From Stappia indica (GTDB lineage: Bacteria > Pseudomonadota > Alphaproteobacteria > Rhizobiales > Stappiaceae), in contig NZ_CP046908.1 of NCBI RefSeq assembly GCF_009789575.1, positions 3,191,001 through 3,255,000 of the forward strand: a stretch of 64,000 bases of DNA, written 5' to 3'. The stretch's first letter is position 1, and the number at the start of each line of letters is the position of its first letter. The notes under the pieces are model-generated. The model ran no database searches and had not been told where the DNA came from. It saw only the letters and a program-made list of their open reading frames with translations. Below are positions 57,442-61,325 of the stretch, piece after piece. The position numbers and the translations under genes were made by a program.

Positions 57442-60213
57442 TCAGTTGGTGGCGGTGCGCCGCGGCCGCGACGAGCCGTCATGGGCCTCGAGATATTCGC
57501 GGAACCGGTCGTCCGGCATCGGCCGGCCGAGATAGAAGCCCTGGATGCGGGTGCAGCCGAGCCGGTCGAGCAGCGCGCACTGGCCTTCGGTCTCCACACC
57601 CTCGGCGACGACGGTGATGCCGAGGCTGGAGGCCATCGCCACGATCGCCTCGACCAGCGCGCGGTCGTCCCGGTCGGTCTCCAGGTCGCGGATGAACGAA
57701 CGGTCGATCTTCAGGACATCGATGGGAAACCGCTTCAGGTTGCTCAGCGAGGAAAATCCCGTGCCGAAATCGTCGAGCGACAGGCGGATGCCGAGCCGGC
57801 GGATCGCGTTGAGCGTCTCGACAGGGTCGCTGCCGGTCTCGTCGAACATGACGCTCTCGGTAATCTCCAGATGCAGCCGCTCCGGCGGCATGCCGGTACG
57901 CTCGACCGTCTCGCGGACGAGCTCGACGAAATTCTCGTCGCGGCACTGGCGCGGCGAGACGTTGACGCTGATGCCTGGCAGGTCGAGCCCCTGTTCGCTG
58001 CAGCGTCGATAGAACAGGCAGGCCTCCTCCAGAACGAAGGCGCCCAGCGGCACGATCAGTCCCGTGGTCTCGGCGATGGGAATGAAGTCGGCCGGCGGGA
58101 TAGGCCCGCGCTCGGGATCGGTCCAGCGGACCAGGGCCTCGCAGCCGGCGATCCGGTTGTGTGCGATATCGATCACCGGCTGATAGTTCAAGGTGAACTG
58201 GCGTCGTTCCAGCGCCTTGCGCAGGGCGCTTTCAGTTTCCAGCGCCCGCGCCACCTGTTCGTTCATGTGGGCGGAGAAGAAGCGCAGCTTGTTACCTCCT
58301 TCCGCCTTGGCGTGATACATCGCCGTATCGGCCTGGCGCAGAAGGAGTTCGTCATCGCGCCCGTCGCTGGGAAACACGGTGATGCCGATGCTGGTGGTCG
58401 CAAACACCTCGACGCCGTCGCCAAGGACCAGCGGGCGGGCCAGGTGGGCGAGCAGGCGGGCTGCCGTCATCTCCACGTCCATCACGCTGCGGACATTGCT
58501 GAGAATGACGGCGAATTCGTCGCCGCCCAGACGCGCTACCGTATCGTGATCGTCGAGGACCGCGCCGATGCGGACCGCCGTCTCCTTGATCAACTGGTCG
58601 CCGATGCTGTGCCCGAGACTGTCGTTGATGTTCTTGAACCGGTCGAGGTCGAGGAACAGCAGGGCGACGATGTTGCCGTCCCACTGCGCCCGCGACATCG
58701 CTTGGACGAGGCGGTCACGGAACAGGGTGCGGTTCGGCAGGCCGGTCAGTCCGTCGAAATTGGCTTGGCGGACGATCAGCTCTTCCTGGCGCTTGCGCTC
58801 GGAAATGTCGGTGATGGTGACGTGATAGGCACCGGCGCCGTTCCAGCGGGTCTGACGCAGGTACACTTCCACCCAGACCCGCTCTCCGGTTCGCGACAGG
58901 GCCCGCGCCTCGTAGACGTCTGGTGCGGAAGCCCCGGAGGTGCGGGCCCGTGCATAGGATTTCATGCGTTCGTGCTCTTCCGGCGCGAACAGGTCCAGCA
59001 CCGGCAAGCCGATCACATTGTGCCGATCCTCGCTCTCGCGGCCGAGCAGCTGCAGCAGCGCATCGTTGATGTAGAGAACCCGCTGGTTGGAGTGGATGCA
59101 CACGCCCTGCAGGGACTCGTCGATGAGTGCCCGGAACTGCGCATCCGACTCCTTGAGGTCGCGAAACGCTTCCTGCAACGCGACACCGACGGCGTTGAAC
59201 TCGCGGATCTTGCCAGGTCTGTAGGTCAGGTCGGACGTGTCCTGACGGATCCGCGCGGCATACTTGACGAGGCGCTCCAGCGCCGGGCTGGTAAAGCGGT
59301 GCAGGATGTAGGCGCCGAGCACGGAGCCGGCCAGAACATAGAGCAGGAACGGCGTGAACAGCGTCTGATAGGTCGCATCGATATTGTCGATGGTCTCGCC
59401 CGGCCGATCGCTGACCAGGTAGAGCGGCCGGCTGGCCGGGGCCTCCTCCAGCAGGGAGCGGATCAGCAACCGGTCGTCTGCAAGGACATGGTCGACCTGG
59501 CCGAGTTGCTTCAGGGGCGCGCGGCCGCTGCGTACGGCATCCCGCAATTCGCCGCTGGCCGAGATCACCCGCTCGTCGAGAAACAATGCGAGACTTTCCG
59601 TGTCGAGAGCCTTGGCCAGATCGTCCAGGAGGTACTTGCTGTCGTTGAAGACGTAGCCGCCGGTCAACTGGCCGACCACGCGGCCGTCGATGTCGTCCAC
59701 CAGCGGAATGGAGAGGGCTGCAAGCAGCACGGGCGCGGTATTGCCGCTGGCCTCCCCGCCGGTGAACAGATGCCACTGACCGACCGGCATGCGCGAACGC
59801 AGGGCCGGGGTGAGGATCTGGTCGAGATCGTAGAGCGAGGCGCCGGCATCCACCCAGTTCGGCGCGTCGGGCTGGTCGATCCTGAGAAGCTCGAACTGCG
59901 CCCCGATCGGCTGACGGGCGGCATCGGACAGGATCTGCAGAACGAGCCCTTCGTCGCGGGACCAGACGGCACGCCTGAGTGCGGAATTCTCGGACAGTGC
60001 CCGCAGATAGGTGTCGAGCCGGCTGAACGTCTGGTCGAAGACGAGGCGGGCAAGCGTCGCCTCCTTGCGGGCGAAGCGCTTCAGCTCCTGATCTGCGATG
60101 GACAGGCTGCCGACATAGCTGATTGCGAAAAGCACGGCCGACGTCGTCAGCAGCGCGACTGCAAACAGGCCGAGCACGAAGCGGTTGAAGCGGAAGTCGG
60201 CCCTGCGTGTCAT
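57442..60213 (-). CDS. Membrane GGDEF-EAL protein with periplasmic sensor and PAS domain
   Basis: A 923-residue c-di-GMP enzyme. Layout: membrane helix 12-33, periplasmic domain about 35-283, second helix about 286-305, linker, PAS domain about 355-475, GGDEF domain about 485-645 with an intact active site (GGDEF 563-567), EAL domain about 660-905 with EAL at 692-694 and conserved NVSPRQ, EITES, DDFGTG, KIDRSFI, AEGVE and QGFYLG motifs. The inhibitory I-site Arg (RxxD five residues before GGDEF) is replaced: residues 554-557 are DDHD. Both synthesis and hydrolysis of c-di-GMP look possible. Its ATG overlaps the stop of a periplasmic binding protein (ATGA), implying the two form a sensor pair. 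Confidence 0.92.
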   Translation of the reverse strand: MTRRADFRFNRFVLGLFAVALLTTSAVLFAISYVGSLSIADQELKRFARKEATLARLVFDQTFSRLDTYLRALSENSALRRAVWSRDEGLVLQILSDAARQPIGAQFELLRIDQPDAPNWVDAGASLYDLDQILTPALRSRMPVGQWHLFTGGEASGNTAPVLLAALSIPLVDDIDGRVVGQLTGGYVFNDSKYLLDDLAKALDTESLALFLDERVISASGELRDAVRSGRAPLKQLGQVDHVLADDRLLIRSLLEEAPASRPLYLVSDRPGETIDNIDATYQTLFTPFLLYVLAGSVLGAYILHRFTSPALERLVKYAARIRQDTSDLTYRPGKIREFNAVGVALQEAFRDLKESDAQFRALIDESLQGVCIHSNQRVLYINDALLQLLGRESEDRHNVIGLPVLDLFAPEEHERMKSYARARTSGASAPDVYEARALSRTGERVWVEVYLRQTRWNGAGAYHVTITDISERKRQEELIVRQANFDGLTGLPNRTLFRDRLVQAMSRAQWDGNIVALLFLDLDRFKNINDSLGHSIGDQLIKETAVRIGAVLDDHDTVARLGGDEFAVILSNVRSVMDVEMTAARLLAHLARPLVLGDGVEVFATTSIGITVFPSDGRDDELLLRQADTAMYHAKAEGGNKLRFFSAHMNEQVARALETESALRKALERRQFTLNYQPVIDIAHNRIAGCEALVRWTDPERGPIPPADFIPIAETTGLIVPLGAFVLEEACLFYRRCSEQGLDLPGISVNVSPRQCRDENFVELVRETVERTGMPPERLHLEITESVMFDETGSDPVETLNAIRRLGIRLSLDDFGTGFSSLSNLKRFPIDVLKIDRSFIRDLETDRDDRALVEAIVAMASSLGITVVAEGVETEGQCALLDRLGCTRIQGFYLGRPMPDDRFREYLEAHDGSSRPRRTATN

Positions 60214-61325
60214 TGCGAGTAGCGGAACGCCCTCCGTTTCAGCTCTTCGATACGCTGCGGCGCGTCTTCCGACGACACGAGGGCGAACGATCCGGAGAAG
60301 ACGAGGGGAACCTCCTCCGTGCGATCCTGACGGTCGAGCGAGATCGCCTCGGCCATCGCCACGCCGTTGTCGTCGTTGATGCGCATGGCCGTCGCCTCGA
60401 GACGGCCCCCGATCAGATAGTCGAGTTCCGCACTGCCGCCGCCCCAGCCGTTGGTGGCGACCCTCCCCGTCAGGCCCGCGGCTTCTATGGCATCGGCAAC
60501 GCCGAGCGCGATGTCAGTGGAGCAGGAATAGATGAAACCGAGGTCCGGATGTCGCTGCAGCAGCTCAGCGGCCGCCTCGCGGGCCTTCTCCCGATCGAAG
60601 CCGACATAATAGGACGCGACCAGTCGTTTCCCCGGCTGCTCCGCCATGGCAAGCCGGAACGGTTCGCCGCGGGCGTGGCTGACATAGCCCTTCAGGCCGT
60701 AGAAGATGGCGAAGGACTCCGGCTGCGGCCGCGTTTCCAGGACATGATCAGCCAGCAGGCGCGCACCGGTGGCATGGTCGAAGCCGACATAGAGGAACGG
60801 CTGGTCCCGGCCCCAGGCGCGCAGCGGCGTGGTGATGTTCTGAAGGATGACCTTCGGGCGGCCGCGGGCAATGAGGCGCTCCACGAGAACCTTGTGGCGC
60901 AGGGCGTCCAGCGTGAAGATCAGATAGTCGGGATCGGACTTCAGCACCTCGACGATCTGCCGGGTCTGTTCGCGGATTTCCTGACCCGGCAGTGTGAACT
61001 GGGACGTCACCTCGTAGCGGATGCCGAGCTCGTCCAGCCGGCGCTCCAGCGCCACGATGCTGCGCCGCCAGTAGTCAGAGGCCTGGATGGCGGGATAGAC
61101 GACGGCGATGCGCGCCTTGCCGAGCGGGGCGCTGGCGGGGACCGCATCACCCTGCACCCGCTGGGTGAACCGTGCGCTCAGTTCGCGCTGCTCAGGGAAT
61201 TCCTTAAAAAAATCGGGAAGTTCCCAGAATTCGGCGAGAGAGTTGCGGCCGAAGTCGGATCTGGCGATACCGGGCGGGAGCATCGCCAAGAAGAGAAGGA
61301 GGAGAACCGGAAAGAGCAGTCGCAT
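60210..61325 (-). CDS. Periplasmic binding protein (LuxP / sugar-binding-like) coupled to a GGDEF-EAL sensor
   Basis: A 371-residue secreted protein with signal sequence MRLLFPVLLLLFLAMLPPGIARS and a type-I periplasmic-binding-protein fold: KARIAVVYPAIQASDYWRRSIVALERRLDELGI, then DPDYLIFTLDALRHKVLVERLI, YVGFDHATGARLLADHVL, GFIYSCSTDIALGVADAIEAAGL and VATNGWGGGSAELDYL. These follow the ribose/autoinducer-2-binding type. There is no ABC permease or ATPase nearby; the next gene, overlapping by four bases, is a membrane GGDEF-EAL protein. It probably presents a ligand to that protein's periplasmic domain, like LuxP-LuxQ or NspS-MbaA. The start is inferred from the signal peptide. Confidence 0.85.
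   Translation of the reverse strand: MRLLFPVLLLLFLAMLPPGIARSDFGRNSLAEFWELPDFFKEFPEQRELSARFTQRVQGDAVPASAPLGKARIAVVYPAIQASDYWRRSIVALERRLDELGIRYEVTSQFTLPGQEIREQTRQIVEVLKSDPDYLIFTLDALRHKVLVERLIARGRPKVILQNITTPLRAWGRDQPFLYVGFDHATGARLLADHVLETRPQPESFAIFYGLKGYVSHARGEPFRLAMAEQPGKRLVASYYVGFDREKAREAAAELLQRHPDLGFIYSCSTDIALGVADAIEAAGLTGRVATNGWGGGSAELDYLIGGRLEATAMRINDDNGVAMAEAISLDRQDRTEEVPLVFSGSFALVSSEDAPQRIEELKRRAFRYSQ

Follow-up and report, generated by a model that had tools for sequence, protein, structure and literature searches.

A predicted LuxP-LuxQ-type autoinducer-2 receptor with a GGDEF-EAL output in Stappia indica

What does a periplasmic binding protein serve when its gene lies beside no transporter and overlaps the gene of a membrane-bound signalling enzyme? 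The question is raised by a gene pair of Stappia indica, located within a 64,000-nucleotide window (G000:C1:3191001-3255000) of its 5.12-Mb single-contig genome, in which the coding sequence of a binding protein with a hydrophobic N-terminal signal sequence shares an ATGA with that of a GGDEF-EAL enzyme, i.e., a protein with both the diguanylate cyclase (GGDEF) and the phosphodiesterase (EAL) domains of cyclic di-GMP (c-di-GMP) metabolism. An initial annotation of the window saw in this pair a small-molecule-to-c-di-GMP switch and regarded its ligand as unknown. The analysis presented here indicates that the pair is likely a LuxP-LuxQ-type receptor for autoinducer-2 (AI-2) re-plumbed to c-di-GMP, in which AI-2 would bind LuxP, LuxP would contact the enzyme and the activity of the enzyme would be modulated.

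Sequence and fold both identify the binding protein as a homologue of LuxP. Its closest relatives are those of other Stappia (94% identity to that of Stappia sp. WLB 29), and a Pfam scan assigns it to Peripla_BP_4 (83 bits). When compared with all sequences of the Protein Data Bank (PDB) by phmmer, it matches LuxP best (E 5e-97, residues 30-370), the next kind of protein following at 3e-15, and it shares 46% identity with Vibrio harveyi LuxP over the full length, which narrows the earlier description of a LuxP/sugar-type protein. In agreement with this, the eight best Foldseek matches of its AlphaFold2 (AF2) model (mean predicted local distance difference test score, pLDDT, 93.5) are all LuxP, including 1JX6 (TM-score 0.93, root-mean-square deviation 1.5), and the first match of another kind appears at E 4e-20. 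TIGR02955, the family of the TorS partner TorT, is absent among its NCBIfam matches.

The enzyme shows the corresponding LuxQ features in its front half. Pfam recognizes the LuxQ periplasmic domain (PF09308, 53 bits, cut-off 25.7) followed by PAS, GGDEF and EAL domains, and the scan gives no match, at E values up to 1, to dCache_1, the domain that in CahR receptors carries R126, W128, Y144, D146 and D173. The NCBIfam model LuxQ_Vibrio scores 88 bits over residues 19-397, far short of the 1200 required for a full-length match, and in a BLASTP comparison with V. campbellii LuxQ the alignment spans the first membrane helix to the PAS domain. A profile built from 72 related periplasmic domains finds LuxQ as its sole significant match in the PDB (E 4e-33), and the six best Foldseek matches of the AF2 model of the periplasmic domain (pLDDT 82.5, low over the last 50 residues) are LuxQ structures. 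The approximately 250-residue periplasmic domain noticed initially is thus of LuxQ type, and the parallel with LuxP-LuxQ goes beyond analogy: the binding protein is homologous to LuxP, and the periplasmic, transmembrane and PAS regions of the enzyme are homologous to those of LuxQ. The V. campbellii luxP and luxQ genes likewise overlap. In the Stappia enzyme, GGDEF-EAL takes the place of the histidine kinase and receiver that form the LuxQ output, and the protein is thus not a kinase of the LuxPQ type.

Both output domains keep their signature residues: the GGDEF motif is intact, and so is every EAL catalytic residue that was checked, in line with the motifs read in the initial annotation. The absence of the I-site Arg also stands, an Asp occupying its place (D554-x-x-D557), but not the weight once put on it: relatives have D, G, E, Q, R or K at this position, and a missing Arg is thus typical of the family and says little. 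Apart from one truncated open reading frame (ORF), every relative alignable over the EAL domain has its residues intact, whereas GGDEF is degenerate (NADEF, NADEY and SGDEF, respectively) in three enzymes with a LuxQ periplasmic domain and an intact EAL (L058:7167-10277, L064:7072-10194 and L104:3326-6085). This suggests that the latter are phosphodiesterase-only versions and that phosphodiesterase activity may be the more constrained output. Putative c-di-GMP receptors are encoded in the same genome, which has eight PilZ matches.

The ligand need no longer be called unknown, since all AI-2-contacting residues are conserved. In 1JX6, AI-2 is hydrogen-bonded by Gln77, Ser79, Trp82, Asn159, Arg215, Thr266 and Arg310 (PMC9687752), and the Stappia protein carries the same residues at the equivalent positions (Q81, S83, W86, N163, R219, T270 and R315); the reference numbering was set by demanding that all seven fit, which a single offset achieved. 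D136, S265, D267, W289 and S293 (LuxP numbering) are kept as well, so that the Stappia protein agrees with V. harveyi LuxP at all 12 pocket positions inspected. As a control, three other alignable Peripla_BP_4 proteins of the same genome, outside the LuxP group, match one of the seven contacts in rough alignments. Of 105 aligned sequences, 97 have the complete set of contacts, both Arg included, as does Stappia, and three of three LuxP-type proteins chosen at random bound AI-2 in the laboratory (PMC12268683). AI-2, probably in its borated form, is therefore a strong candidate for the ligand that Stappia LuxP is predicted to bind.

The conservation survey proposed initially found the pair co-localized in 20 Stappiaceae genomes, comprising 14/14 Stappia and six Roseibium/Labrenzia, always between pnp and dapB apart from a few stretches in which dapB or pnp was not recovered. 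The ATGA overlap read initially is not a matter of chance, because the same four bases are shared in every one of these LuxP-bearing genomes. Another 12 loci combining LuxP with a LuxQ-periplasm GGDEF-EAL enzyme were found in gammaproteobacteria (Oceanospirillum, Marinobacterium, Neptuniibacter, Pontibacterium, Halomonas, Oceanisphaera and Zobellella), and most of the remaining LuxP homologues adjoin LuxQ-periplasm histidine kinases. On the LuxP tree, the GGDEF-EAL output falls into three clades and requires three changes; a single origin is not rejected (approximately unbiased test, p-AU 0.32). Among the gammaproteobacterial loci, the LuxP partner in Neptuniibacter (L078:5914-10098) is a LuxQ-periplasm GGDEF-EAL enzyme; for N. 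caesariensis, a 2008 survey (PMC2561040) labelled the partner as a transcriptional regulator containing PAS. Separately, Motilimonas contigs (L053/L080, L070/L081 and L057/L083) carry two LuxP-like genes each, with no LuxQ-type partner recognized within 400 bp.

Since Stappia lacks LuxS, it would read AI-2 released by other species. luxS is absent from its genome and from 87/87 Stappiaceae genomes searched, so the host is apparently unable to make AI-2; 10 of the 12 gammaproteobacterial carriers have luxS. The luxS-less S. indica genome nevertheless contains an lsr-like operon (L122:3149-12559, i.e., G000:C1:1988148-1997558) encoding an AI-2 kinase, LsrK, above the curated cut-off (801 versus 528 bits), LsrR-like and LsrG-like proteins that both fall under theirs, an RbsD-like protein, and an ATP-binding cassette (ABC) transporter with a binding protein that is LuxP-like, not LsrB. 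LsrK occurs in 3/14 Stappia, exactly those with this second LuxP-like protein. Some Stappia may thus not only sense the AI-2 of other species but also consume it.

Several observations weigh against an AI-2 receptor that works through LuxP. Some come from 18 Roseibium genomes (L086, L092, L104, L105 and L107-L120), in which the enzyme is kept between pnp and dapB and luxP is absent. No binding-protein gene was found upstream, so that a swap of partners was rejected, and tblastn finds no significant LuxP remnant; hence luxP was simply lost, at least twice independently. No relaxed evolution of the periplasmic domain followed this loss, and relaxation was consequently dropped as a possible proof that LuxP and the enzyme interact. 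The enzyme can therefore be useful without LuxP and may have another input. This is what would be expected if it sensed through its own periplasmic or PAS domain, with LuxP as a dispensable modulator, and its fold belongs to the Cache clan, whose other members bind ligands directly (PMC4822843, PMC7584622). However, LuxP is retained in overlap in 14/14 Stappia, and the domain resembles that of LuxQ, which senses via LuxP; we consider such self-sensing unlikely.

Other observations bear on the ligand. The PDB matches include LuxP structures with other sugar-borates, namely 1-deoxy-xylulofuranose borate and a formose-derived analogue (4yr7, 4yp9). In one Stappia genome (G077), a divergent LuxP (L102:1782-2945) has the equivalents of N159, R215, T266 and R310 replaced while the pair is kept, which may reflect a change of ligand or decay. 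Additionally, the ABC-linked LuxP-like paralogue of S. indica retains six of the seven contacts (Q77 replaced by E), and the signature is thus not unique to LuxQ-linked proteins. With the same architecture and mechanism, LuxP could then respond to another small sugar or sugar-borate, a reading to which the lack of LuxS-derived AI-2 in Stappiaceae also lends itself; against it stand the broad retention of the AI-2 contacts, with their two Arg, and the presence of AI-2 kinase and LsrG-like genes in the same organism, which make it improbable. That the binding protein instead serves an ABC transporter encoded elsewhere, its link to the enzyme being merely genomic, is very improbable: LuxP does belong to the sugar-binding protein superfamily and an lsr-like transporter does exist, but the latter has its own binding protein, a separate paralogue found in 3/14 Stappia that is the sole LuxP-like protein linked to a transporter and leaves the LuxP of the pair a transport orphan, whereas the pair occurs in 14/14, its partner enzyme bears the LuxP-docking LuxQ domain, and a direct transport role was rejected for want of an adjoining transporter.

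The features of the pair are collected in Table 1. As noticed initially, it has no transporter partners, neither permease nor ATPase; beside it lie only dapB, upstream and divergent, and pnp, downstream and convergent. A sigma-70 promoter scan found nothing, and terminator matches were near chance level.

Table 1. Features of the luxP-enzyme pair, with positions numbered within the window.
Feature	Positions	Strand	Basis
luxP homologue, predicted AI-2 receptor, periplasmic binding protein (371 aa)	60210..61325	-	Pfam Peripla_BP_4, phmmer vs PDB, AF2/Foldseek
Sec signal peptide (predicted), approximately residues 1-22	61260..61325	-	Read from sequence MRLLFPVLLLLFLAMLPPGIARS
AI-2 pocket region, Peripla_BP_4 residues 73-325	60351..61109	-	LuxP alignment; contacts per PMC9687752
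ATGA stop/start overlap coupling both genes	60210..60213	-	Sequence and conservation
LuxQ-front GGDEF-EAL enzyme (923 aa)	57442..60213	-	Pfam/NCBIfam and motif check
LuxQ-type periplasmic domain, residues 33-285 (PF09308 at 36-220)	59359..60117	-	Pfam, NCBIfam, AF2/Foldseek, profile vs PDB
PAS domain, residues 370-472, homologous to LuxQ PAS region	58798..59106	-	PAS_9, 46 bits; BLASTP to V. campbellii LuxQ
GGDEF domain, residues 484-642	58288..58764	-	154 bits
GGDEF motif, residues 563-567	58513-58527	-	Motif check
I-site position, DDHD, Arg absent	58543-58554	-	Motif check
EAL phosphodiesterase domain (predicted), residues 663-898, tested catalytic residues all present	57520..58227	-	252 bits

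How would a LuxP-LuxQ-type receptor act on c-di-GMP? By homology with LuxPQ, exported LuxP would dock onto the membrane enzyme at its dimeric periplasmic domain of LuxQ type, where AI-2 would close LuxP and rearrange the periplasmic dimer. Seawater contains boron and favours borated AI-2, which is the most likely form of the signal. The signal would pass through the transmembrane helices, the linker and the PAS domain, and the balance between diguanylate cyclase and phosphodiesterase would shift in one step, without a phosphorelay. NspS-MbaA, in which it is established that a ligand-bound periplasmic protein switches the enzyme (PMC8967002), is a precedent for a rearrangement of this kind tipping a GGDEF-EAL enzyme toward either synthesis or degradation. 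Given that EAL, unlike GGDEF, never decays, AI-2 might push the enzyme toward phosphodiesterase activity and lower c-di-GMP; this direction is a guess only, favoured by a slight lean.

Compared with known systems, the pair shares with Vibrio LuxP-LuxQ the LuxP similarity and AI-2 pocket, the periplasmic, transmembrane and PAS portions of LuxQ, and the overlapping luxP-luxQ gene order, but it has GGDEF-EAL in place of the HisKA/HATPase/receiver half, would thus work without a phosphorelay to LuxU/LuxO, and has a host without luxS. Like NspS-MbaA (V. cholerae, S. meliloti), it places a periplasmic binding protein gene beside that of a membrane GGDEF-EAL enzyme; NspS, however, binds polyamines, whereas the Stappia protein is of the LuxP-type Peripla_BP_4 kind and its partner has a LuxQ-type periplasmic domain. 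Control of c-di-GMP enzymes by AI-2 is itself already known. CahR-type dCACHE receptors (e.g., diguanylate cyclase rpHK1S-Z16) and GAPES1/YeaJ are controlled directly (PMC7584622, PMC12834153), but bind AI-2 in their own domain, with no binding protein. In V. furnissii AsrK-AsrR, AI-2 lowers c-di-GMP (PMC11796354), yet through a two-component relay whose response regulator is a phosphodiesterase, with boron-free AI-2 and no LuxP.

Surveys have described LuxP as essentially confined to Vibrio (PMC524169, PMC2561040, PMC7584622), with a few species outside this genus whose neighbouring gene was termed a PAS-containing transcriptional regulator (PMC2561040), and LuxP has also been assigned to transport (PMC12268683). 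A single protein that joins a LuxQ periplasmic domain to a c-di-GMP domain is counted, without being named, in a table of PMC4822843. A literature search, whose reach excluded most subscription papers and all preprints, found no description of a receptor with LuxP, a LuxQ front and a GGDEF-EAL output.

If the proposed wiring is correct, joining a LuxP-LuxQ front to c-di-GMP would remove the phosphorelay from AI-2 quorum sensing and make it possible to test cleanly how the same periplasmic receptor can drive either a kinase or a c-di-GMP enzyme. Roseibium strains with and without LuxP are a natural experiment. The wiring would also explain how foreign AI-2 could control the attachment of marine bacteria that do not produce it, such as Stappia and Roseibium; the AI-2 of other species is probably turned directly into a stick-or-swim decision. 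On balance, we think it more likely than not that whole luxS-less marine lineages convert foreign borated AI-2 directly into changes of c-di-GMP through this one-step LuxP-LuxQ/GGDEF-EAL receptor, a dedicated form of eavesdropping that perhaps arose by up to three swaps of the kinase half.

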